Part shown: in pieces, positions 32,770-63,549 of the stretch
Numbering within the stretch: the first letter of the stretch is position 1
How the letters are laid out: each line of letters opens with the position of its first letter
NCBI RefSeq assembly: GCF_003667705.1
Contig: NZ_CP033019.1
Location: 2,356,001 to 2,420,000, forward strand
Direction of reading: 5' to 3'
Source of the DNA: Janthinobacterium agaricidamnosum
GTDB lineage: Bacteria > Pseudomonadota > Gammaproteobacteria > Burkholderiales > Burkholderiaceae_D
DNA: 64,000 nt
The notes under the pieces: model-generated
Told to the model about the DNA's origin: nothing
Seen by the model: only the letters and a program-made list of their open reading frames with translations
The model's database searches: none
Position numbers and translations under genes: made by a program

Positions 32770-32803
32770 ATGTCACGAAGCCGTCATGTTTGCTGTGTAG
32801 TCT
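32770..32803 (+). promoter_or_regulatory. Candidate Pho box and -10 upstream of the STN/sigma/anti-sigma operon
   Basis: Two 7-mers, ATGTCAC (32770-32776) and CCGTCAT (32781-32787), are separated by four bases. This gives the 11-base period of a PhoB box (consensus CTGTCAT, 5/7 and 6/7 matches). A possible -10, TAGTCT, lies at 32798-32803, ten bases after the box, the usual PhoB geometry. It faces the gene at 32887. Phosphate-starvation control is therefore likely but unproven. Confidence 0.55.
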
Positions 32804-32862: not shown

Positions 32863-32884
32863 ACACGATAGCGACACGATAGCG
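32863..32884 (+). repeat. 11-bp tandem direct repeat before a start codon
   Basis: ACACGATAGCG occurs twice in tandem (32863-32873 and 32874-32884), ending two bases before the ATG of the STN gene. It occupies the place where a Shine-Dalgarno should be, and no AGGAG-like sequence is present. Confidence 0.9.
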
Positions 32885-32886
32885 AT

Positions 32887-33630
32887 ATGACAGGCAGCCC
32901 GGCATCCGTTCATGTGCTTGCGCTGGCCGGATACCTGGTACTGCTGGGTTTCCTGGCCGCGGTGGGGCCCGTGCGGGCGCAGCCGGCCGACGGCGCCGTC
33001 TTGCAGTTCGATATCGCCGCGCAACACCTCGGCGACGCGCTGGACCTGTACAGCCGCCGCACGGGCATCGCCGTGCTGATCGACCAGCGTTACGCGCAGC
33101 GCCAGTCGGCCGCCGTGCGCGGCCCCTATGCGGCGGGAGCGGCCCTGCAAGTCTTGCTGGAGGGCACGGGTCTGCAATCGCGCCTGTCCGACGCGCAAGC
33201 CGTCATCGTGTATGCCCCGGCCGCGGCTTCGGCGCTAGCCGCAGCGGACCTGCCGCCGGCCGCCATGCTGGCCGCCGCCGACATCCCGGGCGCCACGCAG
33301 GGCGGCGGCGACCACGCGGCCTATGTGGGCCGGCTGCAGCGCGTGCTGCTGGGATTGCTGTGCCGCGCCGCGCAGACGCGCCCCGGCGGCTACCGCCTGG
33401 CGCTGCAGCTGTATCTGAACCGCGCCGGCGTCGTCGACCGCGTGCACCTGCTCGACAGCACGGGCTTGCGCGCGCGCGACACGGCGATTGCGCGCGTGGT
33501 GCTGGGCATGCGCGTGGGCGCCGCGCCGCTGCCGTCGATGCCGCAGCCCGTCTCCATCCTGCTGCTGCCGCAAGGGCCGGGCAGCGAAGTCGATTGCGCC
33601 GCTGGCGCGCAAGGAATCTCCGCGCCATGA
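32887..33630 (+). CDS. STN-domain surface-signalling protein without receptor barrel (VreA-like)
   Basis: 247-residue periplasmic protein. Signal peptide is about residues 1-31 (cleavage after VRA). The STN (secretin/TonB N-terminal) domain spans about 38-110 (FDIAAQHLGDALDLYSRRTG, then LLEGTGLQSRLSDAQAVIVY). The C-terminal part (about 165-235; GYRLALQLYLNRAGVVDRVH, then LLDSTG) looks like a TonB C-terminal domain. There is no outer-membrane barrel, as in VreA of P. aeruginosa. It is the first gene of an operon with the ECF sigma and FecR genes (ATGA overlap), so it probably passes a periplasmic signal to the anti-sigma factor. Confidence 0.88.
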   Translation: MTGSPASVHVLALAGYLVLLGFLAAVGPVRAQPADGAVLQFDIAAQHLGDALDLYSRRTGIAVLIDQRYAQRQSAAVRGPYAAGAALQVLLEGTGLQSRLSDAQAVIVYAPAAASALAAADLPPAAMLAAADIPGATQGGGDHAAYVGRLQRVLLGLLCRAAQTRPGGYRLALQLYLNRAGVVDRVHLLDSTGLRARDTAIARVVLGMRVGAAPLPSMPQPVSILLLPQGPGSEVDCAAGAQGISAP

Positions 33631-34202
33631 GCCTGCCCGACCTGCGCACCAGGCTCAAAGGCCACCTCAGTGCGCGCTATGCCGTGCTGCGCTGGCGCCT
33701 GGAACGCGTGGTCGGCTGCAAGCACCATGCGGCCGATGCGCTGCAGGAAACCTGGCTGCGCCTCGAGGCGATGGTGGCGCCCGGTCCCGCCGCCGCGCCC
33801 GTCCATAATCCCGACGCCTACCTGCTGCGCATGGCGGCCAATATCGCCACCGATGCCTACCGCCGCGACCGCATCATCGTCACCGAGCGCGAACGCGAGG
33901 AGCTGATGCACATGGCCGACGAGACGGGCGACGACATCGGCGACCCGGCGCGCATCGTCTCGGCGCGGCTCGACGTGCAGGCGCTCGACGTGGCGCTGGC
34001 CGGCCTGTCGCCGCGCCGCCGCGCCATCCTGACGGCGGCGCGCATCGACGGCATGCTCAATGCGGAGATCGCCGAGCGCTTCGGCATTTCCGTGGCGATG
34101 GTGAAGAAAGAATTGCAGGCCGCCATGCAACACTGTAAAACGTGCATGGCCGACGCCGATGCGGCCCAGCGCAGTGATGTGTCGGGCCGCCGTAAATATT
34201 GA
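33627..34202 (+). CDS. ECF sigma factor (FecI/VreI-like)
   Basis: 191-residue extracytoplasmic-function sigma factor. Region 2 shows HHAADALQETWLRLEAMV and NPDAYLLRMAANIATDAYRR; region 4 shows LAGLSPRRRAILTAARIDGM and LNAEIAERFGISVAMVKKEL as the -35-binding helix-turn-helix. It resembles the iron-starvation FecI class in length and region 4 pattern. The ATG overlaps the STN gene stop (ATGA), and its own TGA shares a base with the FecR ATG (TGATG). Its most likely targets are the giant exoprotein gene just downstream and its own operon, by analogy with PUMA3; no defined promoter consensus could be confirmed. Confidence 0.93.
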   Translation: MSLPDLRTRLKGHLSARYAVLRWRLERVVGCKHHAADALQETWLRLEAMVAPGPAAAPVHNPDAYLLRMAANIATDAYRRDRIIVTEREREELMHMADETGDDIGDPARIVSARLDVQALDVALAGLSPRRRAILTAARIDGMLNAEIAERFGISVAMVKKELQAAMQHCKTCMADADAAQRSDVSGRRKY

Positions 34203-35182
34203 TGAATCCCATGACCGCTTCCGACCGCGATCCACGCGACCTTGTTGAACATGACGACACTGCCATCGGCCGGGAAGCCGCCGCCTGGTGGGCACGCCTG
34301 CGTGCCGACGATTTCACGCAGGCCGACGCCGACGCCTTGCGCGCCTGGTGCGCGCGCAGCCCCGCGCATGCGCGCGCCTGGCGCGAACTCAGGCAGGTGT
34401 GGCAGGCGCTCGATCCCGCCTTGACCCGCGCCGCCGCGCCGCCGCAGGCGAACGTGCTGGCGTTCCCGCTCCGTCCCGGACGGCGCGCTTTTCTCGGCGG
34501 CGCGCTGGCGGCCGGCGTGGCCGTGCTGGCCCTGCGCCCGCCGCTGGGCGCCTGGCCGTCGCTGCAGGAGCTTGGCGCCGACTACCGCACGGGCACGGGC
34601 GAGCAGCGGCAACTGGCCCTGTCGCAGCAGATGACGGTGCAGATGAATACGCAGACGCGCATCGATGTGCGGGCGCCCGAGTCGATCGAACTGCTGGGCG
34701 GCGAAGCGGAAATCCTCGCCAGCGGCGCGCGCCAGCCCGTGTCGGTGGTGGCGGGCGCGGGGCGTTTATTGGCGCAGTCGGCCCGCTTCAATGTGCGCCA
34801 CACGGGCGATGCCGTCTGCGTGACTTGCCTGGCGGGCGCCGTCGAGGTGGTCTGGCAGCAGCGGCGCCAGACTCTTGATGCAGGACAGCAACTGGTGTAC
34901 GACGACGGGGGCGCGCAGGCGGCCACGGCCGCACCAAAGGGCGAAGCGAGCGCCTGGCGCACGGGTGCGTTGTCGTTTGCCGGCCAGCCGCTGTCCCAGG
35001 TGGTCGATGAAATCAACCGCTACCGGCCCGGCCGCGTGCTGCTGCGCAATCCGGAACTGGGCCGCCGCCTCGTGCGCATGCGCTTTTCCATCCGCCAGAT
35101 GGATGGCGCGCTGGCGATGATACGCGACTTGACGGGAGCAGAAATGATCAGTTTGCCGGGCGGCATCGTCTTGCTGAGCTGA
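34202..35182 (+). CDS. FecR family anti-sigma factor (VreR-like)
   Basis: 326-residue inner-membrane anti-sigma regulator. The cytosolic sigma-binding domain is about residues 20-85 (EAAAWWARLRADDFTQADAD, ARAWRELRQVWQALDP). A twin-arginine motif Arg94-Arg95 (GRRAFLGG) leads into one membrane segment (about 96-115). The periplasmic FecR domain (YRTGTGEQRQLALSQQMTVQ) and a C-terminal DUF4974/STN-like region (VVDEINRYRPGRVLLRNPEL, then LTGAEMISLP) follow. The ORF could start at TTG 34199, but the ATG at 34202 with TGATG overlap is preferred. It should hold the upstream sigma factor inactive until the STN protein signals. Confidence 0.93.
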   Translation: MNPMTASDRDPRDLVEHDDTAIGREAAAWWARLRADDFTQADADALRAWCARSPAHARAWRELRQVWQALDPALTRAAAPPQANVLAFPLRPGRRAFLGGALAAGVAVLALRPPLGAWPSLQELGADYRTGTGEQRQLALSQQMTVQMNTQTRIDVRAPESIELLGGEAEILASGARQPVSVVAGAGRLLAQSARFNVRHTGDAVCVTCLAGAVEVVWQQRRQTLDAGQQLVYDDGGAQAATAAPKGEASAWRTGALSFAGQPLSQVVDEINRYRPGRVLLRNPELGRRLVRMRFSIRQMDGALAMIRDLTGAEMISLPGGIVLLS

Positions 35183-35335
35183 TCTCGGCGGATGCCGGAT
35201 GCCCCGGCGGCACGCGTATCAAAATATTTTTCAAAAAACATTATCCCTTCCGCCGCCCAGCTACGTCATGGAGGCATGGACGCTTGCGCTAACGCCAGGC
35301 TCCGTTCCCATCCCACTAGCCAGGAAACCATTGCC

Positions 35336-38300
35336 ATGACCAAGCTTCACACTGCCCAGCGCCCAGTCCCAACCGTTGACACGGGCGCGCAGCGTACTTC
35401 CACGCTGGGCAGCCGCCTGCGGCTCACGCCGCTTGCTTACGCACTGACCACCATGCTGATGGCGGGCGCCTTCAGCACGCCGGCGCGGGCGCAGCAGGCG
35501 TTCAGCGGCGGCTGGTTCGCGGCCAAGGGGGCGGCGCAGAATACGGCTGCCACCTCGGGCCGCCTGCCGAATGGCCAGCCGCTGCCGTTGGGCAGCCGGC
35601 CCGAGGGCCAGCAACAGCAGGCCAATCAGCAGTTGCAGCGCTCGCTCAACAACCTGAACCTGGCCGCGCGCGCCATCGCCGCGCAGCAATCGGCCCAGGC
35701 GCAGGCGCGCCAGAGTGCCGCCGGCGGCGCCAGCGCGCCGAACGGCCTGGCGCAGGGCGGCTTGCAGGTCGACTCCAACAGCCTGACGGCCGGCTGGCTC
35801 AATGCCCAGGCGCCCGTGCAGACGGTGGCGAACGGCAAGACGGCCGTGGTGGTGCAGCAGACGGCGGACAAGGCCATCCTGAACTGGGAAACATTTAATG
35901 TGGGCAAGGATACGACCCTGACCTTCCAGCAGCAAAAGGACTGGGCCGTGCTGAACCGGGTCAACGATCCGCAAGCGCGTCCCAGCCAGATCCAGGGGCA
36001 GATCAAGGCCGACGGCACGGTGCTGCTCGTCAACCGCAACGGCATCGTGTTTACCGGCACGAGCCAGGTCGACACGCGCAGCCTGGTGGCGGCCGCGGCC
36101 CGCATCAGCGATACGCAATTCCAGAAAAACGGCATCTACAGCGCCGGCACGGCCGGCGCCACGACATTTACTGACGCGGCCGGCAAGGTACAGGTACAGG
36201 CGGGCGCGCGCCTGGCCAGCAATGCGCCCAAGGGCAGCACGGAAGGCGGCGGTTACGTGATGCTGCTGGGCAAGGAAGTGCACCAGGCGGGCGAGATCGC
36301 CACGCCCAAGGGCCAGGCCCTGCTGGCCGCCGGCGACAGTTTTACCATTAAAAAAGGCGTGGGCACGGATGGCAATCCGCTGTCGAGCACGCGCGGCAGC
36401 GAAGTCACGCCGCAGTTCGCGGCCGGCAGCACGGCGGGCAAGGTCGTCAACACGGGCCTGATCCAGGCGCGCGAAGGCGACGTTACTCTGGCGGGGCGCG
36501 ACGTGCGCCAGGAAGGCGTCGTGCTCGCCTCCACCACGGCCGCCACGCGCGGCACCGTGCACCTCAACGCGCTGGGCAGCGACGCGGCCGTCACCGTGGG
36601 ACGGGGCGCCACCACGGCCATCGTCATCGAGGACGATGGCAAGACGACGGCGCTCGACAGCCAGCGCGACGCCATGCGCGGCCCGGCCGCGACGTCCACG
36701 GAAAACATCGTTGCCGTCAATGACCGCCGCGACCAGTCGCGCATCGAGATCGGCAGCGCCGGCACGGTGGAATTCCTCGGCGACTCGCTGACCCTGGCCA
36801 CGGGCGGCCAGATCGCCGTCAACGCCGCCAGCCGCAGCCTGCTGCGCGACGGCGCCCAGCTCGACGTCTCCGGCGCCGTGGGCGTCAAGGTGGCCATGGA
36901 GGCGAACAATATCGAGATCAACGTGCAGGGCAACGAGCAGCGCGACGCGCCCGTCAACCGCGACGGCAAGGCCTTGCTCAACAGCAGTATCTGGGTCGAC
37001 CGCCGCAAGCTGGTATTCGTACCGAAAGGCACGAACGGCTACGACAGCGACCGCTGGTACACGGCCGGCGGCTTGCTGGAAGTGGCCGGCTACCTGGGCA
37101 CGCAGGGCCATTCCGTCAGCGAGTGGATGGCGCAGGGCGGCACCGTCAGCTTCGGTGGCAAGGATGTCGTCACGCAGCTTGGCTCCGCCATCAACCTGTC
37201 GGGCGGCACCCTGGACGTGCAGACGGGCGCGGTGCGCCAGACCTGGCTCAAAGGCGTGGACGGCAAGTTGCATGAGGCGGGCAGCGCGCCGGCCGACTTG
37301 CCGTACGCGGGCGTGTACAAGGGTTATGAGGAAGAACATGCGCGCTGGGGCAAGGATGCCAGCGCGTTCTACGCCAATCCATTGATCGCCGCGCAACAGC
37401 GCCTGGAAAACGGCTACACGGTGGGTCGCGACGCCGGCAAGCTGGTGGTCGCCACCGGTTCGGCCGTGCTGGAAGGGGGCATCGCGGGCGAGGTCTTCCA
37501 GGGCGAGCGCCAGACCCAGGCGCCGCAGGCCCTGCTCGACGGCTACCAGCAGTCGCAGCTCGCCGCCGCGCAGCGGGGGCAGCTGATCGTCGGCCAGTAC
37601 CAGCCGATGTTCGACAAGCGCACGGGCGTGCTGCAGCACGCATTGTCGGCCGTCATGGACGAGGTGCGCCTGACGCGCGTGCAGGACGGCATCGCCGCCG
37701 GCCTCGACGTGGCCGACGTGCTGGCTTCAGAGCGCCAAGGCAAGCTGCTGCTCGATACCAACTTGCTCAACAGCCAGCAACTGGGCGCCATCCGCCTCGC
37801 CGCGAAAGGCGCGATCACCGTCGACAGCGCGCTGCAGGTGGCCGACGGCGGCAACATCACCCTGTTCGGCAAGGACGTGGCCATCAACGCCAGCCTGCGC
37901 AGCCATGGCGGCAGCATCATGGCCGGCAATGTGCTGAACCAGCTCGGCGCGCTGGGCATGTTGGACACGGTCGTCAATCCGGGCGGGCCAGCGGGCAAGC
38001 TGGTGCTGGCCGACGGCGTCACGCTCGACACCAGCGGTCTGCTCAGCAACGTGCTGCGCGACCCGCTGGCCGCCGCCGGCCTGCCGTATATCAATGGCGG
38101 CAATGTGTCGCTGCGGGCGAACGGCGACGTGCGCATCGGCAGCGGCAGCCTGATCGACGCCGGCTCGGGCGCGGCCATCCTGTCGCAGGCGAAACAGCAG
38201 GGTGGCAAGGGCGGCAACGTGAGCCTGGCCAGCTATGGAACGACATCGGACCTGGTGCTGGGCGAAGGCGCGCAAGTGCGCGGCCATGGCGTTGCCGGCG

Positions 38301-41300
38301 GCGGCAAGCTGGAATTACAGGCAAACAAGATTTTGATCGGCAAAACTGAAAAACCCGAGGCCGGCACCCTGCAACTGGGCGGCGACTTTTTTGAGCAGGG
38401 TTTTTCCAGCTACAGCCTGGTCGGCAAGCAGGGCTTGACGGTCGCGGACGGCACGCAGGTGGACGTGCGCATGCCCGTGCTGCGTGTAGTGGACAATGAA
38501 AAACTGGCCCTGTGGATGCCGGAGCAATACACGGAAAACCCGCTCAAGGGCACCTTGACCCAGCGCAAGGGCGCCAGCCTGGCCCTGCAGGTGGGCGATA
38601 TCCAGTCCGGCGCGGCCGACATGGCCAGTGCCGAGTTGCTGATAGGCAAGGGCGCCGTGGTGAGCGTCGATGCGGGCCAGTCCATCAAGCTGGCCAGCGT
38701 GGGCCAGTTGACGGTGGACGGGCGCCTGAACGCGTGGGGCGGCAAGATCAGCCTGGGCGGCGTGGGCGTGGGCGTGGACGTGAACGTGTCCGAAGCGGTG
38801 GAAGCGGCCGGCCATGGCCGTTCCCTGTGGATCGGCGACAATGCCGTGCTCGACGTGGCGTCGCGCGCCGTCACGGCCACCGATGCACAGGGCCGGCGCT
38901 ACGGCAAGGTGGCGGACGGCGGCAGCATCGTCGTCGGCGGCGAAATCGACCACGCGCAGGGCAGCACGTCGGCGGCCAGCCTGTTCGTCGTCGTGCGCGA
39001 CGGCGCCGTGCTCGACGCGTCCGGCGCGCATGCGGTGCTGGACGTCAATGGCGCGGCTGTCGACGTGGCCAGCGCGGGCGGCAGCATCGCGCTGGCGTCG
39101 AACAACGGCTTGTACCTCGATGGCCAGCTGCTGGCCAAGGCGGGCGGTGCGGGCGCGGCGGGCGGCAGCCTGTCCGTGGCCACGGGCACCCCGGTCTACC
39201 TGAAAACGCTGGCGACGGACAAGGTGCTGCAGGGGCGCCAGCTGATCCTCTCGCAGCGCCAGCTTGCCAGCGACCTGGCCGACGGCGTGCATGCGCAGGA
39301 TGCGGCGCAGCTGCTGCAGTACGGCCATGGCCGCTACTCGGTGGAGCAAGTGGCGGCGGGCGGCTTCGGCAACCTGGCCCTGCTGGGCGCCGCCTCCTTC
39401 GATGGCGACGTGTCGCTGACGCTGCAGCAAAGCTTCCAGCTGTATGGCGCGCCCGTGCTGGCGCCAGGCAGCAAGCCCGGCGCGAAGGTCGGCATCGCGG
39501 CGCCGTACGTGCGCCTGGCCAGCGTCAAGCCGGCGGGACGCGATTTCTATGTCACGCCGGGTACGGCGGGCCAGTCGCCGATGGCCGGCCAGGTCAGCAT
39601 AGCTGGCGACCTGATCGACGTGCGCGGCCTGGTCGACATTCGGGCGGACGACGTGCGCCTGACGAGCCGCGGCGACGTGCGCTTCCTGCTGTCGCCGCTG
39701 GGCTGGGACGGCAACCAGCCGACGACGGTGCTGTCCACGCCGGGCGACATGACCCTCAGCGCGGCCCAGCTGTACCCGGAAACGGGCGCCGGCGCCGCCG
39801 TGCGGGCCGGCTATGGCATCGTCAACGGCAAGATTGGCTACGATCCCGCCCACAGCCTGAACATCGCCCGCAGCACGGCTGACGTGCCGCTCATGCCGTA
39901 TTCCGCTTTCGGCTCGCTGGAACTGGCCGCCGCGCACATCGAGCAGGGCGGCGTCGTGCGCGCGCCGCTGGGGCGCCTGGCCATCGGCGCGGCCGGCTAT
40001 GAGAACGACAGGAGCCTGACCGTTAACTTGTTGCCAGGTAGTATCACCTCCGTCAGCGGCGCCGGCCTGGTCATGCCGTATGGCGGCACCGTCGATGGCC
40101 AGACCTGGAACGTCAACGGCAAGCCGGTCACCCTGATGGGCGTGGGCGGCATCAATGTGCAGGGCGGCCTGCGCATCGGCGTGGACATCGCCGGCGTGGC
40201 CGTGGACGTGCGGCCGGGCGCGCTGCTCGACCTGTCGGGCGGCGGCGAACTGACGGGTGCAGGTTTCATTTCCGGGCGCGGCGGCTCCACCGACGCGCGC
40301 ACCCATCCGCTGGTGCAGGTGGGCGCGAATGGCGGCTTCATCCTGCCGGGCCTGGCAACGAACCCCGTGTACGCCATCGTGCCGGGCGCGCAAGCGCCGC
40401 AGGCGCCGTCGGGCGGCGACAAGGGCGCCTCCGATGCGGCCATCGGCCGGCAGGTGACGATAGGCAGCGGCGTGCCGGGTCTGCCCGCCGGCACCTACAC
40501 CCTGATGCCGTCGACCTATGCCTTGCTGCCGGGCGCTTTCCGCGTGGAACTGAACGGCCTGGCGGGGCAAGGCAGCGCCGGCTCGCTGGTGCAGCCGCTG
40601 CGCAACGGTTCCTGGGCCGCGCCCGGCACCTTGTCGATCGCCGGCACGGACATCCGCGCGCCGCTGGCCAGCCAGCTGATACTCACGCCGGCCAAGGTCT
40701 TGCGCACGTATTCCCAGTACAACGAAACGGGCTATGCGGCGTTCGCCCTGGCCGATGCGAAAACGCGCGGCATTCCCCGCGCACTGCTGCCTGCCGACGC
40801 GAAAACGCTCAAGCTGACCCTGGCGCAAGGCGGCGGCCCGGACACGTTCCAGTTCAAGGGCACGGGCAAATTCTCCACGGCCGAGGGCGGCTACGGCGGC
40901 ACCGTGGTGCTGGGGTCGAGCAATGTCACCGACGGCGACATTGAAATCCTCGCCGACGGCGCGCCGGCCGCCAGCGGCGCCGGGCTGGTCAGCGTGCGTG
41001 CTTCAAGCCTGAACAATATCGGCGCGGCCCGTATTGTGGTGGGCAATGCACCGTCCGTGGAATATGGCCAGGGCGGCAACTACGTGAACTTCGGTTTCAA
41101 CACGGCGCGCGCCATCTACCTGCGCGCAGGCGCCATCCTGTCGGCGCCGGAAGTGTTCCTCGTCGCCCAGGACCCGGGCAATGACCAGCTGGGCGACGGC
41201 TTGATCGATATCGCGCCCGGCGCCGGCATCAGCACTGTGGGGCGCGGCAAGGCCGCGTACGACGCCAACGACGGCTTTATCTACCAAAAAGGCCGCGCGG

Positions 41301-44300
41301 ACGTGCACATGCTGGCCGCCTCGAACGGCTTGCTCAACGTGGCGCCCGTCAGCGGCACGGCGCGCGGCGGCATCCGCATCGGCGTGTGCGGCGACACCTG
41401 CACCGACAAAGGAACAGCGAGCCTGTACTCGGAAGGCACCTTGCTGTTGTCGACGAACGGCAGTTTCGCACTGGACGACACGGCCCGCTACGGCACGCGC
41501 AACCTGAGCCTGGCCGTGGGTGCCATCAACATGGGCAGCAGCGAGGCGCTGGCGGCGGCCCAGGCCAACGGCACGCGCTCGAGCGGCCTGGCCATGAACC
41601 AGGGCGTGCTGGACCGCCTGCTGCGCGGCGACACCAGCACCGGCGCGCCAGCCCTGCAGGCGCTGATGCTGAACGCGGCCGACAGCGTCAATTTCTATGG
41701 CGACGTGGTGCTCGACACCTACGACAAGGGCACGGGCAAATCCACCTTGGACCGCCTGGTGCTGACCACGCCGGCCATGTATGGACAGGGCGGCGCCGAC
41801 ACCGTGGCGACCATCCGCACTGCCAACCTGATCTGGGGCGGTGCCCTGTCGCCGGCCGGCAATGTCATCACGCATGGCGCCGGCACGGGCAGCGGCACCC
41901 TGAACCTGGAAGCGGAACGCATCGATTTCGGCTTCGGCCCGTTCACGCAGCCGGCCGGCGTCGCCTCGTTCGACCGGCTGGCGCTGGGTTTTGCCAACGT
42001 CAACCTGAAGGCGTCGGGCCAGGTGACGGCCAACCACAAGGGCAGCCTGTCCGTCTACCAGGCGCAGGGCGCCTACGAGGCCGGCAAGGGTTTCCAGTAC
42101 AGCGGCGGCAACCTCAATATCAGCACGCCGCTGCTGACGGGCGAGGCCGGTTCGGCGCACAGCTACACGGCGGGCGGCGCGCTGAAGGTAGCGGCCCCGG
42201 CCGGTACGGCGCCAGCGGCTCCCGTCAAGAATAACGCTGCGCTGGGCGCGCAGCTGGCGCTGAACGGCGACAGCGTGAGCGTGGCGACGGCCGTGGTGCT
42301 GCCGAGCGGCAAGCTGACCATCAACGCGCAGCACGACATCGCCGTGGCCGACGGCGCGCGCATCGATATGGCGGGCCGCAAGAGCACCTTCTTCGACGTG
42401 AACAAATACAGCTGGGGCGGCGACGTGATCCTGGACAGCCGCGCCGGCGATATCGGCCAGGGCGCGGGCAGCGTGATCGACCTGTCGGCCGAGAACAACC
42501 GCGCCGGCAGCCTGAAGGCCGTGGCCCTCGATGGCGCGGCCGGCATGGTGGACTTGCAGGGCAAGATACTGGGCGGCGCCAGCGGCAGCTACGACGCGGG
42601 CGGCACCATGGTCCCGTACAAGAAGGGCAGCGTGGACGTGCGCGCGCAAACCCTGGGCGCGGGCGGCGCGCCGGACAGCCGGTTCGCGTTGCTGAACACG
42701 CGCCTGAACGAAGGCGGCGTGACGGGTGCGCGCAGCTTCCAGCTGAAGCAGGGCGACCTGACGATAGCCAATGAGCTGAAGGCGGGCGAAGTGCAGGTAT
42801 CGCTCGACAATGGCCGCCTGACGGTGGCAGGCACGATCGACGCCAGCGGCGAGCGCGTGGGCAGCATCCGCCTGGCCGGCAAGCATGGCGTCACCCTGGC
42901 CGGCAACGCCGTGCTCGACGCGCATGGCACGCTGTTGCGCGTTGACAGCTACGGCAAGATCATCGACAGCCCGAACCGGGCCATGGTCGAACTGAACGCG
43001 GGCGAAGGCGTATTGAGCCTGGCCGGCGGCGCGCAGATCGACGTGCGCCATGCCACGGCAGCCGTGGCCGGCAAGGGCAAGGGCGAATACGACGGCGCCG
43101 CGCGCGGCACGGTGGAACTGAGCGCGCCGCGCCTGGGCAGCGGCGGTTCCCGCACGGATGCGGACGCGGCCACCTTCGGCGACATCGCCATTGCGGCCGG
43201 CGGCGGCTTGACGATACGCGGCGCGAAATCGATCGCCGTCAACGCCATGCAGCGCTACGACGATGCGGCCTACGCCGCGGACCTGTCGGCCAGCGGCCGC
43301 CCCTACCAGGTGATCAACCAGGCATATCTCGACAGCAAGCATGCGGACAGCACCGCTTTCATCGATGCGGCGCTGGCCAACACGAACTTGCGCAATATCA
43401 AGCTGGCGGGCCTGGCCACGGCCGCGTATGCCGATGCGCTGCATCTGCGTCCCGGCGTCGATATCGTCAGCAAGACGCCGGACGGCGACCTGGTGGTGCA
43501 GGGCGACCTGGACTTGTCGGGCATGCGCTACGCCAGCCTCAATCCGCGCTTTCAAGCAACAAATGTGCGCGGGTCGGGCGAGGTGGGCAACCTGCTGCTG
43601 CGCGCCGGCGGCGACTTGAGCATCTACGGCAGCATCAACGACGGTTTCGCGCCGCCGCCCGCCACCAAGGATGACGGCGGCTGGGTCCTGCTGCCGGGGC
43701 GCGACATCAATGGCAGCGACGTCATCGTCCCGGGCCAGGGCGTGACCCTGGCCGACGGCACCTTGTTCCCGGGCGGGATCGCGCTCAATTACGACGTGCC
43801 CGTCAAGGGTTTCAATCTGCTGGCCAATACGCGCCTGCCCGTGGCCGTCGTGCTGGACCAGGCCATGACGGTGCGGGCGGGCACCGTGCTGGCCGCCGCC
43901 GTGCGCGACAGCGACGGCAATATCGTCCACGCGGCCGGCACCTTGCTGACGACGCAACAAGTGTTTACGCCCGGCATGCGCCTCGATGCGGGCAGCGTGC
44001 TGGCGCAAGCGGTCAAGGTGCGCGCCATGAGCTGGCCCAAGGGCGTGCCGCTGCCGGGCGTGGCTGGCGAACGCAGCGTTTTCGTACTTGATGGCAACCT
44101 GGCGCTGGCCGTGGGCGCATTGATCCCGTCCGGCACCGACGTCAAGCTGATGCCCGATGTGAAGTCGATTCAGCTGCGCCCGGAAGTGGCGGGCAGCCAG
44201 GGCAAGCTGTGGGCGATCGCGCCCATGCTGGCCGAAGGCTCGCAAGCGTGGGGCATGCGCCTGGTGGCCGGTGCCGACCTCGATGCGGCTGACACGCGCG

Positions 44301-47300
44301 GCGTACAGGCGCACCCAAGCCACGGCACCCTGCGCCTGGCCGACAGCCATTACGGCATGTATGGCATCCTCGTGCCGCCGAAAGGCGTGCAGTACTGGAG
44401 CGAAGCCGCTGCGGAACTGGGCGTCGAAGGTATCGTGGCGGGCGAAGTCATCACCGAGGAATTCACCAGTCAGTTCGGCCAGACTGTGGCGGAGCTCTGC
44501 GCCAGCGACCCGTCCCTGTGCGTGCTGAAGGTGGCCTACGTGTGGACCAAGGCCGGCGCGGAAGAGTTTGCGGATGACAACGTGAAGGCGGGCGACCTGC
44601 TCGACCCCGTGGCGCTCAAGTGGCCGACGGTTTGCGAGGAAAAGCCCACCTGGTGCGGCACGGCCAACGCCACGTTCGACTACAAGGCCTCGAGCCTGCG
44701 CCACAGCGTGCTGCGCACGGGCACGGGCGACCTGGACCTGGTCAGCGGCGGCGACCTGCGCATGGACAGCCTGTATGGCGTGTACACGGCAGGCATGTCG
44801 TCCGTGGCGACGTCGGCCGGCGATCCGTACAACCAGGCGCGCGGCCGCAATGCCGACGGCAAGGTGCTGAGCAATCCTGACGGTGCGCACGAACACCTGG
44901 TCGACGGCGGCGCCGACAGCGTGTACCGCGCCTGGTACCCGGACCAGGGCGGCAACCTGCTGCTGAACGTGGCGGGCAACCTGACGGGCTCGCTGATGAC
45001 GGGCAGCAGCGCGATCAATCTGCGTCCCGTCGGTTCGGACAGCGGCCACGACAGCGCGGCCGTCGGCAACTGGCTGTGGCGCCAGGGCAGCGGCGCGGTC
45101 GCCACGGGTGGCCAGGCGCAGCCGGCGGCGTGGTGGATCAATTTCGGCAGCTATGTGGGCGATGCCAGCGGCAACAAGGGCGCCGACAAGCTGCTGGGCT
45201 TTACGGGCTTCGGTACCCTGGGCGGCGGCAACGTGCGCGCCGACGTGGCCGGCGACGCGGGCGTGCAGGCGCTGCTGTCCGGCAGCAGTTTTGACAACAA
45301 TATCAATACCCGTTCGCAGGGCCTGCTGCTGGCCGTGGGCGGCACGGGCCGCGTGCAGGCCGATGGTAGCCTGCTGCTGACGGGCGGCGGCGACCTCGAG
45401 CTGCGCGTTGGCGGCGCCCTCAATCCGGCCGGCACGGCAGGCCTCAACCACATGAATGGCGCGCTGGTCGATGTGCGCGGCCACGCGGCCACGTCGGCCA
45501 CGCAACTGGGCAGCGTGGCGCTGGAATACGGCTCGCAGCCTACCCAGCACGTGCCGCTGGAAACGCGCGCCTACGATGCCTTCACCGCGACGCGCGCCGC
45601 GCCGAAGGGCGGCATGACCCTGGTGCCGGGCGACGCCACCTTCACGGTGGCGACCCTGGGCGACCAGGTGTTGCAGGACGTGGCCGACCCCGGCCGCGTG
45701 CCTTTGCTCAGCGCATCCCCGTTCACCAGCGCCGCGGGCGAGGCGGGCGTCGGCTACAGCTGGTTCAGCCTGTGGACGCCGCGCACGGCGCTCGACCTGT
45801 TCTCCGCCGGCGGCAACATGACGCCGTTGACGGCACCGGTCGGCACGGCCACCGACCTGGCCATCGTTTACCCGTCCATCGTGCGCGTCGCGGCGCCGAA
45901 TGGCAGTTTGTACTACGGCAAGGCAACCGCCAGCTGGAATAGCGCCAACAGCTATGCCGAGCCGCTGGTGCTGGCGCCATCGCCGAATGCCCAACTGGAG
46001 TGGCTGGCCGGCGATTCCATCTATGCGGGCGGTTATGCCGTCAGCCAGTCCGGCGCCGGCGCGGACAGCATGGCGACGCCGTTCAAGCCAGCCTTCGTGG
46101 GCTGGAGCGCGAATGCGGCCGATGCTAATCCCGTGACGGGCAACATTTCCAGCACGGGCGCGCCGGCGACGCGCTGGAACTTCCCGCTGTTCGCCTTCGG
46201 CCCCGATTCCGCCGCCGGACCTGCCAACAGCGGCACGCAAGCGGCCCGCATCTATGCCGTGAAGGGCGATTTGATCGGCGTCAATAGTGGCCGCATGGTC
46301 GCGTTCTACGACGCCAGGCATGCGGGCACCACCTGGTATGAGGGGGCGCAACCGGTGTGGATGAAGGCGGGCCGCGATATCGTCAGCAGCGGCACGGCAT
46401 TGCTTGAGGGGATAGACGGTAGCGAGAACACGAGCGGCATGATATTCAGGAATTACAGCAACCTGTTCGTGCACAACAATGCGTTTGACGTCTCGGTGGT
46501 CTCGGCCGGGCGCGATATCCTGAACAGCTCCTTCAACGTGGCCGGCCCCGGCACGCTCGACATCAGCGCGGGACGCAACATATTGATGCAGGACAAGGGC
46601 AGCGTCGTCAGCCTCGGTCCCGTCGTCGCCGGAGATAAACGCCCGGGCGCCGGCATCGCCATGCAGGCGGGCGTGGGCGCCGCCGGCCTCGACTATCTGC
46701 GCTTCGTCAAGCCGTATCTTGACCCGGCCAACGTGGCCCAGGCGGGCGTGCCGCTGGCCGAGCAGGCAGGCAAGGTGGTGAAGTCGTACGCGACCGAATT
46801 GACGACCTGGCTGAATGAACGCTACGGCTTCAAGGGCACGGCCGCCGAGGCGCAGGCCTTTTATCTGGCCTTGCCCGAGCCGCAGCAGCGCGTCTTTGCC
46901 CGCCAGGTGTATTTCGCGGAACTGAAGGCGGGCGGGCGCGAGTTCAACGATGCGGACAGCGCCCGCTACGGCAGCTTCCTGCGCAGCCGCAATGCCATCG
47001 CGGCCCTGGCGCCGGCCAAGGACGCCAGCGGCAAGGCCATCGATTATGCGGGCGACATCGTCATGTACCGCGGGCTTTACGCCAAGCGGAACGACGGCGA
47101 GCAGCGCTGGGACTATTTCCCCCGCAGCGGCTACGTGCACACCAACTTCGGCGGCGACATCCAGCTGTTGACGCCGGGCGGCAAGCAGGTGTTCGGCATC
47201 GAAGGCGAGGCGCCGCCGTCGACCTCGGGCGTTATCACCAAGGGCGGCGGCAACATCGAGTTGTTCTCGCACGGCAGCATCCTGCTGGGCCAGAGCCGCG

Positions 47301-47965
47301 TCATGACGACGTTTGGAGGCGATATCCTCGGCTGGTCGTCGGAGGGCGACATCAACGCGGGGCGCGGCTCGAAGTCGACTATCGTCTACACGCCGCCCAA
47401 GCGCGTGTATGACAACTGGGGCAACGTGACCCTGTCGTCCGACGTGCCGAGCACGGGCGCCGGCATCGCCACCCTGGCGCCGATCGCGGAAGTGCCGGCC
47501 GGCGATGTCGACTTGCTGGCGCCGCTGGGCACCATCGACGCGGGCGAGGCGGGCATCCGCGTCTCGGGCAGCGTCAACCTGGCCGCGCTGACGGTGGTGA
47601 ACGCGGCGAACATCCAGGTCAAGGGCGAAGCCAAGGGCATGCCGACGGTGGCGTCCGTCAACGTGGCCGCCATGACGAACGCCAGCGCGGCCGCCACGCA
47701 GGCCACGGCCGCCGCGCAGGACGTGGTGCAGCGCGAGCGCGCCGCCACCCGTGCCGCGCAGCCGTCCGTGTTCACGGTGCGCGTGCTGGGCTTTGGCAAC
47801 GACGCACCGCCCGACAGCGCGCAAGCGGCGCCGCAGGATGGCGCGCGCACCGAGGCGGCCGACTACAACCCGCGCAGCGCCGTGCGCGTGCTGGGTCTGG
47901 GCACGCTGCCGGAATCGGCCACGCGCCAGCTGACGGCGCAAGAGCGCAGCAGGTTGTCGCCATGA
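35336..47965 (+). CDS. Giant filamentous haemagglutinin family exoprotein (TpsA, DUF3739 type)
   Basis: 4209-residue predicted surface or secreted protein. A long signal peptide with a hydrophobic core (LAYALTTMLMAGAF) ends at about Ala52 (TPARA). Residues about 143-310 are the haemagglutination-activity/TPS domain (LTAGWLNAQAPVQTVANGK, ILNWETFNVGKDTTLTFQ, INGQIK-type QGQIKADGTVLLVNRNGIVF). The rest is Gly/Ala/Asp-rich beta-helix repeat sequence. The C-terminal 150 residues (DVDLLAPLGTIDAGEAGIRV) match DUF3739 proteins tied to VreARI signalling, and the tail repeats VRVLGFG and VRVLGLG. Cys are rare: a pair near 2018-2022 and four near 3053-3106. No TpsB transporter is nearby. AT-rich DNA with a CGTC (35264-35267) precedes it, possibly an ECF promoter. 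Confidence 0.95.
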   Translation: MTKLHTAQRPVPTVDTGAQRTSTLGSRLRLTPLAYALTTMLMAGAFSTPARAQQAFSGGWFAAKGAAQNTAATSGRLPNGQPLPLGSRPEGQQQQANQQLQRSLNNLNLAARAIAAQQSAQAQARQSAAGGASAPNGLAQGGLQVDSNSLTAGWLNAQAPVQTVANGKTAVVVQQTADKAILNWETFNVGKDTTLTFQQQKDWAVLNRVNDPQARPSQIQGQIKADGTVLLVNRNGIVFTGTSQVDTRSLVAAAARISDTQFQKNGIYSAGTAGATTFTDAAGKVQVQAGARLASNAPKGSTEGGGYVMLLGKEVHQAGEIATPKGQALLAAGDSFTIKKGVGTDGNPLSSTRGSEVTPQFAAGSTAGKVVNTGLIQAREGDVTLAGRDVRQEGVVLASTTAATRGTVHLNALGSDAAVTVGRGATTAIVIEDDGKTTALDSQRDAMRGPAATSTENIVAVNDRRDQSRIEIGSAGTVEFLGDSLTLATGGQIAVNAASRSLLRDGAQLDVSGAVGVKVAMEANNIEINVQGNEQRDAPVNRDGKALLNSSIWVDRRKLVFVPKGTNGYDSDRWYTAGGLLEVAGYLGTQGHSVSEWMAQGGTVSFGGKDVVTQLGSAINLSGGTLDVQTGAVRQTWLKGVDGKLHEAGSAPADLPYAGVYKGYEEEHARWGKDASAFYANPLIAAQQRLENGYTVGRDAGKLVVATGSAVLEGGIAGEVFQGERQTQAPQALLDGYQQSQLAAAQRGQLIVGQYQPMFDKRTGVLQHALSAVMDEVRLTRVQDGIAAGLDVADVLASERQGKLLLDTNLLNSQQLGAIRLAAKGAITVDSALQVADGGNITLFGKDVAINASLRSHGGSIMAGNVLNQLGALGMLDTVVNPGGPAGKLVLADGVTLDTSGLLSNVLRDPLAAAGLPYINGGNVSLRANGDVRIGSGSLIDAGSGAAILSQAKQQGGKGGNVSLASYGTTSDLVLGEGAQVRGHGVAGGGKLELQANKILIGKTEKPEAGTLQLGGDFFEQGFSSYSLVGKQGLTVADGTQVDVRMPVLRVVDNEKLALWMPEQYTENPLKGTLTQRKGASLALQVGDIQSGAADMASAELLIGKGAVVSVDAGQSIKLASVGQLTVDGRLNAWGGKISLGGVGVGVDVNVSEAVEAAGHGRSLWIGDNAVLDVASRAVTATDAQGRRYGKVADGGSIVVGGEIDHAQGSTSAASLFVVVRDGAVLDASGAHAVLDVNGAAVDVASAGGSIALASNNGLYLDGQLLAKAGGAGAAGGSLSVATGTPVYLKTLATDKVLQGRQLILSQRQLASDLADGVHAQDAAQLLQYGHGRYSVEQVAAGGFGNLALLGAASFDGDVSLTLQQSFQLYGAPVLAPGSKPGAKVGIAAPYVRLASVKPAGRDFYVTPGTAGQSPMAGQVSIAGDLIDVRGLVDIRADDVRLTSRGDVRFLLSPLGWDGNQPTTVLSTPGDMTLSAAQLYPETGAGAAVRAGYGIVNGKIGYDPAHSLNIARSTADVPLMPYSAFGSLELAAAHIEQGGVVRAPLGRLAIGAAGYENDRSLTVNLLPGSITSVSGAGLVMPYGGTVDGQTWNVNGKPVTLMGVGGINVQGGLRIGVDIAGVAVDVRPGALLDLSGGGELTGAGFISGRGGSTDARTHPLVQVGANGGFILPGLATNPVYAIVPGAQAPQAPSGGDKGASDAAIGRQVTIGSGVPGLPAGTYTLMPSTYALLPGAFRVELNGLAGQGSAGSLVQPLRNGSWAAPGTLSIAGTDIRAPLASQLILTPAKVLRTYSQYNETGYAAFALADAKTRGIPRALLPADAKTLKLTLAQGGGPDTFQFKGTGKFSTAEGGYGGTVVLGSSNVTDGDIEILADGAPAASGAGLVSVRASSLNNIGAARIVVGNAPSVEYGQGGNYVNFGFNTARAIYLRAGAILSAPEVFLVAQDPGNDQLGDGLIDIAPGAGISTVGRGKAAYDANDGFIYQKGRADVHMLAASNGLLNVAPVSGTARGGIRIGVCGDTCTDKGTASLYSEGTLLLSTNGSFALDDTARYGTRNLSLAVGAINMGSSEALAAAQANGTRSSGLAMNQGVLDRLLRGDTSTGAPALQALMLNAADSVNFYGDVVLDTYDKGTGKSTLDRLVLTTPAMYGQGGADTVATIRTANLIWGGALSPAGNVITHGAGTGSGTLNLEAERIDFGFGPFTQPAGVASFDRLALGFANVNLKASGQVTANHKGSLSVYQAQGAYEAGKGFQYSGGNLNISTPLLTGEAGSAHSYTAGGALKVAAPAGTAPAAPVKNNAALGAQLALNGDSVSVATAVVLPSGKLTINAQHDIAVADGARIDMAGRKSTFFDVNKYSWGGDVILDSRAGDIGQGAGSVIDLSAENNRAGSLKAVALDGAAGMVDLQGKILGGASGSYDAGGTMVPYKKGSVDVRAQTLGAGGAPDSRFALLNTRLNEGGVTGARSFQLKQGDLTIANELKAGEVQVSLDNGRLTVAGTIDASGERVGSIRLAGKHGVTLAGNAVLDAHGTLLRVDSYGKIIDSPNRAMVELNAGEGVLSLAGGAQIDVRHATAAVAGKGKGEYDGAARGTVELSAPRLGSGGSRTDADAATFGDIAIAAGGGLTIRGAKSIAVNAMQRYDDAAYAADLSASGRPYQVINQAYLDSKHADSTAFIDAALANTNLRNIKLAGLATAAYADALHLRPGVDIVSKTPDGDLVVQGDLDLSGMRYASLNPRFQATNVRGSGEVGNLLLRAGGDLSIYGSINDGFAPPPATKDDGGWVLLPGRDINGSDVIVPGQGVTLADGTLFPGGIALNYDVPVKGFNLLANTRLPVAVVLDQAMTVRAGTVLAAAVRDSDGNIVHAAGTLLTTQQVFTPGMRLDAGSVLAQAVKVRAMSWPKGVPLPGVAGERSVFVLDGNLALAVGALIPSGTDVKLMPDVKSIQLRPEVAGSQGKLWAIAPMLAEGSQAWGMRLVAGADLDAADTRGVQAHPSHGTLRLADSHYGMYGILVPPKGVQYWSEAAAELGVEGIVAGEVITEEFTSQFGQTVAELCASDPSLCVLKVAYVWTKAGAEEFADDNVKAGDLLDPVALKWPTVCEEKPTWCGTANATFDYKASSLRHSVLRTGTGDLDLVSGGDLRMDSLYGVYTAGMSSVATSAGDPYNQARGRNADGKVLSNPDGAHEHLVDGGADSVYRAWYPDQGGNLLLNVAGNLTGSLMTGSSAINLRPVGSDSGHDSAAVGNWLWRQGSGAVATGGQAQPAAWWINFGSYVGDASGNKGADKLLGFTGFGTLGGGNVRADVAGDAGVQALLSGSSFDNNINTRSQGLLLAVGGTGRVQADGSLLLTGGGDLELRVGGALNPAGTAGLNHMNGALVDVRGHAATSATQLGSVALEYGSQPTQHVPLETRAYDAFTATRAAPKGGMTLVPGDATFTVATLGDQVLQDVADPGRVPLLSASPFTSAAGEAGVGYSWFSLWTPRTALDLFSAGGNMTPLTAPVGTATDLAIVYPSIVRVAAPNGSLYYGKATASWNSANSYAEPLVLAPSPNAQLEWLAGDSIYAGGYAVSQSGAGADSMATPFKPAFVGWSANAADANPVTGNISSTGAPATRWNFPLFAFGPDSAAGPANSGTQAARIYAVKGDLIGVNSGRMVAFYDARHAGTTWYEGAQPVWMKAGRDIVSSGTALLEGIDGSENTSGMIFRNYSNLFVHNNAFDVSVVSAGRDILNSSFNVAGPGTLDISAGRNILMQDKGSVVSLGPVVAGDKRPGAGIAMQAGVGAAGLDYLRFVKPYLDPANVAQAGVPLAEQAGKVVKSYATELTTWLNERYGFKGTAAEAQAFYLALPEPQQRVFARQVYFAELKAGGREFNDADSARYGSFLRSRNAIAALAPAKDASGKAIDYAGDIVMYRGLYAKRNDGEQRWDYFPRSGYVHTNFGGDIQLLTPGGKQVFGIEGEAPPSTSGVITKGGGNIELFSHGSILLGQSRVMTTFGGDILGWSSEGDINAGRGSKSTIVYTPPKRVYDNWGNVTLSSDVPSTGAGIATLAPIAEVPAGDVDLLAPLGTIDAGEAGIRVSGSVNLAALTVVNAANIQVKGEAKGMPTVASVNVAAMTNASAAATQATAAAQDVVQRERAATRAAQPSVFTVRVLGFGNDAPPDSAQAAPQDGARTEAADYNPRSAVRVLGLGTLPESATRQLTAQERSRLSP

Positions 47966-48687
47966 TGGCCGGCATGGCTGGCGCCTTGCCCTTGCGCATG
48001 ACAGGTGCCATGCGGCAGGCAGGCATGGCCTGGTACCGGCCCGCCATCCGGCCCCGCATGCAGGCGGCCAATGATATGGCGCCCGTGTCAACGCCGGCGC
48101 CGGGGCAGGGCGCAAGGCTGCAGGCGGTGCTGGAAGGCAATTACGCGGCCCTGCACCGGCGCCTGGCGCGCCACCTGGGCTGCGCCGAGCTGGCCAGCGA
48201 CAGCCTGCACGACGCCTGGCTGCGCCTGGGCGCGCTGACGGCCGGGGACGGCGCGGCGCTGGCGCACAGCCCCGTCGCCTATGTGTTTCGCGTGGCGTGC
48301 AACGCGGCCATGGACAGTCTGCGGCGCAATCGCGCCTGGCTGTATGCGGACGAGGAGGATGGCGTCGCAGGCCTCGTCGATTTCCTCGCCGATACGGCGG
48401 CGGGACCGGAGCGCCTGGCCGAGCTGCATGCCGACGTGCGGCGGCTGGCGCAAGCCGTCGACTTGCTGCCGCGGCGCCACCGGCAGGTGCTCGAAGCGCT
48501 GCGCGTGGATGAGCTGACCCGCCAGGAAGTGGCCGAGCGGCACGACATGTCGCTGCGCAACGTCGATACGGCCTTGCGCCAGGCGCTCGACCATTGCGCC
48601 CGCCACACGGGCTACGCGGCGCAGGGCGGCGTCGGCACGACCCGGCGCAGCTTGAGGCTGAACGTTCGTTCGCGTACAGACGCTTAG
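47962..48687 (+). CDS. ECF sigma factor (second, orphan)
   Basis: 241-residue sigma-70 family protein if started at the ATG overlapping the exoprotein stop (ATGATG); an internal start at 48076 (MAPVSTPAPG) would remove a nonconserved 38-residue leader. Region 2: AELASDSLHDAWLRLGALTA and SPVAYVFRVACNAAMDSLRR. Region 4: AVDLLPRRHRQVLEALRVDE and LTRQEVAERHDMSLRNVDTA. The sequence is clearly different from the sigma factor at 33627. AGCAGG before the ATG and the overlap suggest coupling to the exoprotein gene. No anti-sigma gene follows; the next gene is paoA after 76 bases. Confidence 0.88.
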   Translation: MMAGMAGALPLRMTGAMRQAGMAWYRPAIRPRMQAANDMAPVSTPAPGQGARLQAVLEGNYAALHRRLARHLGCAELASDSLHDAWLRLGALTAGDGAALAHSPVAYVFRVACNAAMDSLRRNRAWLYADEEDGVAGLVDFLADTAAGPERLAELHADVRRLAQAVDLLPRRHRQVLEALRVDELTRQEVAERHDMSLRNVDTALRQALDHCARHTGYAAQGGVGTTRRSLRLNVRSRTDA

Positions 48688-48763
48688 GCATCCGGCGGCC
48701 AGACTGCTGCTTCGGGCCTGCATGCGCCCACCCAGCCAGTCCACAGCCAGGAGGAAGCGCGAG

Positions 48764-49420
48764 ATGACAGACTCTAATCACATCAATGCCGGCAGGCGCG
48801 GCTTGCTGATCGCCGGTGCGCTGTCGGCCACGGCGGTGGCCGTGCCCGGCGTGACGGGGGCAGCCGAAGCGGCCCATGGCGCGGCCCAATCCGGACATGT
48901 GCCGCCCGTCCTGATGAAAGTCGGCCTGAACGTCAACGGCCGGCGCCACAGCCTGGAACTCGACACGCGCACCACCTTGCTCGACGCTTTGCGCGAACAT
49001 TTGCAACTGACGGGAACCAAAAAGGGCTGCGACCACGGCCAGTGCGGCGCCTGCACCGTCATGCTCGACGGCCAGCGCATCAATGCCTGTCTGACCCTGG
49101 CCGTGATGCATGACGGCGCCAGGGTCACCACCATCGAAGGGCTGGGCACGCCGGAGAAACTGCATCCGATGCAGGCCGCCTTCATCGCGCATGACGGTTA
49201 TCAATGCGGCTACTGCACCCCGGGGCAGATCTGTTCGGCCGTCGCCGCGCTGGGCGAGATCCGCCAGGGCATCCCCAGCCACGTCAGCGCGGACCTGAAC
49301 GCGGCCCCGCAAGCGACGCCCGAAGAATTGCGCGAACGCATGAGCGGCAATATTTGCCGCTGCGGCGCCTATTCCAACATCATCGAAGCCATTACCGAGG
49401 TGGCGGGGAGGCCCGCATGA
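48764..49420 (+). CDS. paoA: Aldehyde oxidoreductase iron-sulfur subunit PaoA
   Basis: 218-residue [2Fe-2S] subunit of a periplasmic xanthine-oxidase-family aldehyde oxidoreductase. A twin-arginine signal is present (Arg11-Arg12, [19 protein letters not shown]). The plant-ferredoxin cluster is [19 protein letters not shown] with a fourth Cys in INACLT; the second cluster is [12 protein letters not shown] with [16 protein letters not shown] lies about nine bases before the ATG at 48764. It overlaps paoB by four bases (ATGA). The holoenzyme detoxifies aldehydes, especially aromatic ones in E. coli, and is folded before Tat export. Confidence 0.94.
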
Positions 49421-50376: not shown

Positions 50377-50380
50377 GGCC

Positions 50381-61936: not shown

Positions 61937-62009
61937 TGCTTGTTTCCCTTCGTTCATGTGTTGGTCTTGTGTGGATTGACGGGGCACATGCGCGAAAGGG
62001 ACATTTTTT

Positions 62010-62975: not shown

Positions 62976-62976
62976 G

Positions 62977-63489: not shown

Positions 63490-63549
63490 GGCACACTCCA
63501 GTTGGCGCGGAAGTCCCGTGCCGCTGGCGCATGCAGGCCCTTCTTAAAT

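Follow-up and report, generated by a model that had tools for sequence, protein, structure and literature searches.

The closest described relative of the locus reported here is the PUMA3/Vre system of Pseudomonas aeruginosa. Its vreAIR genes (PA0674-PA0676) encode, in this order, a barrel-less protein with an STN signaling domain, the extracytoplasmic function (ECF) sigma factor VreI and a FecR-type anti-sigma factor, and pdtA (PA0690) encodes a large TpsA exoprotein. The same order was found in Janthinobacterium agaricidamnosum, in a window (the whole stretch of DNA that was analyzed) of 64,000 nucleotides, positions 2,356,001 to 2,420,000 of contig NZ_CP033019.1. Here tpsA was linked to the regulators, a Pho-box-like repeat preceded vreA, and a second ECF sigma gene (ECF2) stood directly behind tpsA. 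ECF2 is a real and conserved part of this PUMA3/Vre-type cassette. The label 'VreI-type' is used below on the basis of gene order and neighbors, not of a comparison with the P. aeruginosa proteins themselves.

The cassette differed from its P. aeruginosa counterpart in two ways. The hxc genes lie between vreAIR and pdtA in P. aeruginosa (PMC2729926), whereas tpsA came straight after fecR in the window. Furthermore, pdtA is transcribed alone (PMC4971064), whereas tpsA in the window was followed by the overlapping second ECF gene. An ECF gene elsewhere in P. aeruginosa, PA0149, was up 7.4-fold on overproduction of VreI (PMC2729926).

Four copies of the PUMA3 homologs have been reported in Janthinobacterium; tpsA follows three of them, and tpsB with exbBD follows the fourth (PMC2729926). 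In Janthinobacterium sp. and R. palustris, the PUMA3-tpsA clusters consist of vreAIR and then tpsA, in several copies per genome, one of them linked to tpsB and exbBD. The adjacency of the regulators and tpsA, which an earlier sequence-only reading of the window had put forward as the point of interest, was therefore already published for this genus (PMC2729926), and what is new here is ECF2 behind tpsA. The accessible text of Llamas et al. 2009 (PMC2729926) does not mention a second sigma gene, and its Supplementary Figure S5B may show one. On this point, the papers listed from one open-licence library comprised only the P. aeruginosa work, apart from reviews and unrelated items, with no mention of an ECF gene behind tpsA. 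That library yielded no paper on DUF3739 and a single, unrelated one on the ECF context, and the accessible part of a Collimonas paper contained only an ordinary fecIR. Two ECF sigma factors in one cell-surface-signaling pathway are also found in FpvR-FpvI-PvdS. There one anti-sigma factor restrains the second sigma as well as the first (PMC4256889), whereas in the window it is encoded behind the presumed target of the first.

The five genes were all on the + strand, in line and where the sequence-only reading had placed them, with the second ECF gene overlapping the stop of the exoprotein gene. The vreA-like gene (32887-33630, 247 aa) and ECF1 (33627-34202, 191 aa), a VreI-type, FecI-like sigma factor, overlapped in an ATGA. 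ECF1 and fecR (34202-35182; alternative TTG start at 34199), which encodes a VreR-type anti-sigma factor, shared one base (TGATG). After a gap of 153 bp came tpsA (35336-47965, 4209 aa; an in-frame ATG upstream, at 35192, would give 4257 aa). The second sigma gene, ECF2 (47962-48687, 241 aa), allied to the VreI type, overlapped the tpsA stop in another ATGA. There was a single fecR in the cassette, and ECF2 had none of its own alongside. No tpsB, exbBD, hxc or phdA was seen beside the cassette.

Domain matches agreed with this layout. ECF1 matched Sigma70_r2 and r4_2 above the Pfam cut-offs (and NCBIfam models), and ECF2 matched r4_2 above the cut-off (39.7 bits) and r2 just under it (23.2 versus 24). 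The anti-sigma factor contained FecR (PF04773) and DUF4880, both above cut-off. TpsA contained a TPS secretion domain (PF05860, 2.6e-25, at 35816-36502; TIGR01901 of NCBIfam, 2e-21) and DUF3739 (3e-38, at 47315-47647). With the order, the VreI-type sigma, the FecR/DUF4880 anti-sigma and the linked tpsA all present, the assignment to the PUMA3/Vre type in the sequence-only reading held. Its description of the cassette as 'fused' to the exoprotein did not, as these were separate genes and tpsA had a candidate promoter of its own. Among the domains that it had named, FecR and DUF3739 were found above cut-off; STN was recovered through the NCBIfam FecA model and fell below cut-off in Pfam, and TonB_C was not matched.

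A census was made of 40 genomes of the genus by joining the places of DUF3739 with the listed matches to ECF and vreA and with close matches to tpsB. All census counts refer to the matches listed; those to ECF reached down to about 2e-14, and a weaker ECF2 would be missed. DUF3739 was above cut-off in 26 genomes, at 62 places (two matches below cut-off, in G015 and G026, were excluded). Thirty-two of these loci were followed by ECF2 (within 2 kb) and 25 by tpsB (within 3 kb). None had both, and five had neither, of which three belonged to a class with a shorter TpsA (about 3800 aa) and two lay at contig edges. In 31 of the 32 ECF2 loci, vreA and ECF1 were upstream on the same contig and strand; the 32nd started at a contig edge.

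The ECF2 alignment was also used to scan named genomes in a collection of 84,980 species, which gave 66 loci. Fifty-six of them (L055-L110) matched ECF2 best; of the other ten, three (L111-L113) were VreI-type sigmas and seven were weak or unrelated matches. The C-terminus of a TpsA was encoded directly upstream, on the same strand, in 52 of the 56. The exceptions were a contig edge (L067) and three Achromobacter loci without TpsA directly upstream (L107-L109), in one of which (L107) fecR was followed by two phdA-like genes with DUF772 and then by ECF2. The genera represented were Janthinobacterium, Variovorax, Herbaspirillum, Cupriavidus, Bordetella, Xylophilus, Achromobacter and Steroidobacter. 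The census and scan counts overlap, because several of the named Janthinobacterium loci are from the same strains as census genomes. Because the scan required two exact eight-residue stretches, it was bound to find ECF2-like sigmas, and no firm conclusion on absence, such as from Pseudomonas, can be drawn from it.

Outside the genus, vreA lay 13-16 kb upstream on the same strand, judged by position, in 12 of the 13 ECF2 loci that were followed up; the contig of the remaining one (L069) started first. The 12 outside blocks that were fetched all contained vreA, ECF, fecR and the start of tpsA. A family sample of 392 genomes contained 16 outside the genus with DUF3739, at 32 places. In G272, G191 and G241 the ECF2 alignment matched at 1e-71 or better directly behind such a place; the remaining matches, at 3e-42 or weaker, were in the range of VreI-type sigmas. 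The census and the named-genome scan ruled out ECF2 as a chance neighbor. The sequence-only reading had counted the extra sigma as part of the cassette, and 32 of 62 genus loci and 52 of 56 named ECF2 loci bore this out; the gene order was not peculiar to one strain and was found again both throughout the genus and outside it. A general rule that ECF2 and tpsB exclude each other was rejected: it held in the genus census but was broken by a Variovorax locus (L096) that had both.

The 57 ECF2 sequences formed one side of a single branch (support 99/96) in a tree built from 94 sigma factors, within a group of only VreI-type and ECF2 sequences (99/99). The 27 VreI-type sequences were not one side of a branch, and ECF2 lay beside or inside them; the tree was rooted at its midpoint, and several long branches were flagged as unsure in position. 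ECF2 is under purifying selection. Across nine orthologs its frame was open in all nine, and its median ratio of nonsynonymous to synonymous substitution rates (dN/dS) was 0.31, with 0.21 in the core and 0.54 in the N-terminal 49 residues. The medians for ECF1, VreA and FecR were 0.15, 0.22 and 0.24. The N-terminus of ECF2 was loose and its tail conserved. From the single clade and the dN/dS values, ECF2 looked like an old, working relative of VreI.

These results bear on the possibility that ECF2 is a hitchhiker, that is, a duplicated sigma gene carried along with tpsA and without a regulatory role in the locus. No target of ECF2 is known, the tpsB-linked and three short-class loci of the genus had no ECF2 among the matches listed, and 29 of the 32 places with DUF3739 found beyond the genus in the family sample lacked it, all of which would suit a passenger. 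We consider it very improbable, however, as ECF2 stood behind DUF3739 genes in several genera, had one origin and showed a core dN/dS of 0.21.

We favor, with a probability of about 0.5, a satellite PUMA3 cassette that contains a second sigma tier of its own, in which PhoB would act on vreAIR, ECF1 on tpsA-ecf2, and ECF2 onward. We infer the following steps. Under phosphate limitation, PhoB would bind the Pho-box-like repeat upstream of vreA, and the operon of vreA, ECF1 and fecR would be expressed. FecR would keep ECF1 back until FecR itself was removed through an event in the periplasm or at the outer membrane, for which VreA may be the relay. ECF1 would then read one promoter, between fecR and tpsA, to give a single long tpsA-ecf2 transcript. 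TpsA would leave the cell through a TpsB encoded at a second, main locus. ECF2, made last, would read a different class of promoter, and so may pass the signal to further genes. ECF2 adds a conserved component to this signaling system.

The first step was suggested by a Pho-box-like direct repeat upstream of vreA (32770-32787, + strand; ATGTCAC and CCGTCAT separated by 4 bp, 11-bp period), which matched the consensus at 12 of 14 positions and was identical in all nine orthologous cassettes. A score of at least 11/14 was reached, in one orientation, in 20 of 22 vreA upstream regions, many of which are close kin; only 2.6% of 3208 windows taken at random, and 5% of shuffled sequences, scored as high. 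The vreA starts of three of the 22 (L043, L045 and L051) were probably called too early; they were kept. Outside the genus, 10 of 12 cassettes reached 11/14, two of them on the other strand, in stretches of 310 bp for which there is no background rate. In P. aeruginosa, PhoB controls vreAIR (PMC4971064), and phosphate-linked control of PUMA3/Vre is thus suggested to reach beyond Pseudomonas. A Pho box at the satellite tpsA promoter was rejected, since the best score in the nine orthologs was 8-9/14, the background level; at the three main-type loci the opposite strand scored 11. Just before the vreA start (32863-32884), an 11-bp sequence (ACACGATAGCG) was also noted in two perfect tandem copies, kept with small changes in the orthologs; no clear ribosome-binding site was seen there.

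A candidate ECF promoter of tpsA was found at 35233-35267 (+ strand). It consisted of an A-tract, CATTATCC, a 15-bp spacer and TACGTC, and its footprint was conserved in the orthologs. An A-tract followed after 24 to 27 nucleotides by CGTC was present in 13 of 15 ECF2-bearing genus cassettes, in none of three main-type and none of three short-class loci, and in no more than 0.2% of shuffles of nine spacers. Seven aligned loci (the window, L048 and five of Variovorax) had CGTCATG around the -10 side in common, and four had CGTCATGGAGG; the -35 side of the window promoter was unlike that of the other six. Cassettes with the other type of ECF1 had GTTTGCGG or a near form, plus CGTC or CGTT. The exact GTTTGCGG was found in Janthinobacterium (L044, L046, L047 and L052), Variovorax (L176 and L178) and Steroidobacter (L180). 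The type of promoter tracked the type of ECF1 across genera.

Each of the 10 genomes searched had the exact window-type site once, and always at the satellite tpsA (control, 0), a test that bore only on a second copy at that stringency. With one mismatch allowed, three more, unshared sites appeared, versus four in the reversed control. The single strict site per genome suggested that the visible target of ECF1 is the operon that ends in ECF2. The other-type site occurred once in five of eight genomes, each time at the genome's own tpsA. The locus offers a sigma factor whose visible target is a single site, another sigma encoded behind the gene at that site, and promoters of two classes.

The same sites could be read as positive feedback, in which ECF2 would read the tpsA promoter of ECF1 and keep tpsA on once started. 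The only strict-match site was indeed the tpsA promoter, with ECF2 downstream, and the A-tract arrangement went with ECF2-bearing cassettes and was absent from main-type and short-class loci. The region-4 segment of ECF2, however, was unlike that of ECF1 and conserved, and contains the residues that we take to read DNA. The -35 side of the tpsA promoter varied with the type of ECF1, whereas this segment of ECF2 was conserved. We regard such feedback as decidedly unlikely.

Several observations weighed against a second sigma tier. The promoter patterns were derived from the sites themselves, and the A-tract was lost in the Variovorax cassettes with the window's type of ECF1. The five other-type sites were not above the reversed control (six) although all five were at tpsA; with a control of six, it is their position and not their number that is the evidence. 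No target promoter of ECF2 was found in Janthinobacterium. The tpsB-linked loci of the genus lacked ECF2 among the matches listed, and only 3 of the 32 DUF3739 places outside the genus in the family sample had ECF2 directly behind. Of 52 distinct loci in which the upstream gene could be read, only 19 had the 4-bp start-stop overlap, and universal translational coupling of tpsA and ECF2 was rejected on this count. Finally, the local FecR could just as well hold ECF2.

This last point leads to a parallel output instead of a later tier, with ECF2 as a second client of the local FecR, after the manner of FpvR with FpvI and PvdS. FpvR binds and inhibits both sigmas despite their low mutual identity (PMC4256889). 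In the present case ECF2 grouped with the VreI type, and the cassette had one fecR. Against this, ECF2 lies behind tpsA, apart from vreAIR, and if made from the tpsA promoter it would appear after ECF1 was already free. Five of the 12 cassettes outside the genus also pointed to a separate partner, at least there. These (L169, L170, L172, L173 and L174, all of Variovorax and with the window's type of ECF1) had a small DUF4880 gene of about 116-127 residues, with no FecR domain, between the promoter and tpsA. DUF4880 was above cut-off in four of the five and scored 23.2 versus 25 bits in the fifth. We consider control of ECF2 by the local FecR unlikely.

The small stand-alone genes are apparently copies of the sigma-binding domain of VreR minus the FecR part. 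A search of 13 genomes with small DUF4880 gave 35 matches, of which two were such small genes and 33 lay in longer frames. Thirty-two of these 33 were beside a vreA match and were the fecR genes of PUMA3 loci; the other (G396:C229) had no vreA among the matches listed. The small gene was absent from the window cassette. A mini anti-sigma of the Variovorax kind elsewhere in the source genome was rejected, as only the fecR genes of two PUMA3 loci matched at E <= 1e-5.

Variovorax also provided clues to the role of ECF2. In seven loci a conserved promoter-like block (GTCACGCATCCTGTTGCATAGTC, with small changes) lay between ECF2 and a phdA-like gene, and this block differed from the tpsA promoter. 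In L096, checked gene by gene, the phdA-like gene was followed by pseudopilin-type genes (T2SSI above cut-off, T2SSJ below), tpsB, exbB, exbD and a TonB-like gene. The pdtA and phdA promoters of P. aeruginosa both need VreI (PMC4971064), and it would be in keeping with this if ECF1 and ECF2 divided the task. A bolder and quite improbable extension is that ECF2 serves as a completion signal. A duplicated VreI-type sigma, placed behind the 12.6-kb tpsA, would be made only after the message had been read to its end, and would then activate promoters of another class. In Variovorax this would be the promoter in front of phdA, a gene that in L096 is followed by the type II pseudopilin genes and tpsB. 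An apparent duplicate of the anti-sigma N-domain stands before tpsA in some Variovorax, so that a sigma/anti-sigma pair would bracket the exoprotein gene.

VreA itself carried an STN signaling domain in a barrel-less protein, as in PUMA3/Vre. The Pfam STN match was below cut-off (17.2 versus 28.4 bits), and the NCBIfam FecA model covered residues 31-113 at 4e-9. The best solved match to its predicted model (15-row alignment; mean predicted local distance difference test score, pLDDT, 72.7) was the signaling domain of FpvA (2.6e-6). Following a hydrophobic N-terminus and this domain, the C-terminal half may be TolA/TonB-like: it had no match to Pfam TonB_C, and its predicted model resembled weakly P. 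aeruginosa TolA domain III (1lr0, E 0.016) and the HasB C-terminal domain (0.025). No beta-barrel was matched in its 247 residues, and no plug-and-barrel receptor was found at the window cassette. Llamas et al. 2009 likewise modeled P. aeruginosa VreA on the folds of the FpvA signaling domain and TolA domain III (PMC2729926).

The role of VreA is doubtful even in P. aeruginosa. In a vreA deletion mutant, sigma-VreI-dependent promoters were at the wild-type level under phosphate starvation (PMC4971064), and VreA was reported to be dispensable in vivo (PMC7035377). These results weakened the suggestion of the sequence-only reading that the locus would help to find the ligand of barrel-less STN proteins.

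The genome (6.36 Mb, one contig) contained DUF3739 twice. The second, main locus (5786034-5806902, - strand) consisted of vreA, ECF, fecR, tpsA (4545 aa), tpsB (ShlB, POTRA_2), an ExbB-type gene with DUF2341 and lectin-like domains, exbD and a TonB-like gene with TonB_C below cut-off. It was at this locus that tpsB, exbB, exbD and the TonB-like gene of PUMA3/Vre had counterparts, and it had no ECF2 among the ECF matches listed. A close match to TpsB was present in all 26 genus genomes with DUF3739 above cut-off. The number of tpsA per genome ranged from one to five, versus one tpsB match in 23 of the 26 and two, pieces included, in the other three. A single TpsB may be shared by several of the giant TpsA proteins.

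A toxin domain at the end of TpsA was rejected: Pfam gave only DUF3739 and TPS, and NCBIfam had no match in the last 358 residues. The model predicted for the C-terminal part contained strands and a helix, besides a tail that was disordered; its confidence was low (mean pLDDT 62). The loci of the shorter TpsA class (L048, L049 and L050) had vreAIR, with no match to ECF2 or tpsB behind among those listed. In three loci (L037, of G008, L103 and L110) tpsA read in more than one frame, from decay or sequencing error; tpsB of G008 was in two pieces.

Directly behind ECF2 in the window lay genes for a three-subunit molybdenum hydroxylase (2Fe-2S, FAD and Mo; 48722-52579). They were rejected as a fixed target of ECF2, being behind 11 Janthinobacterium loci (L055-L065) and not behind L066, L067 or those of other genera. 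Elsewhere in the window, on the - strand, was a classical cell-surface-signaling set (59543-63530), in contrast to the barrel-less VreA. It comprised a TonB-dependent receptor with barrel and plug, its STN below cut-off (59543-62113), a FecR (62010-62975) and an ECF sigma factor (from about 62980).

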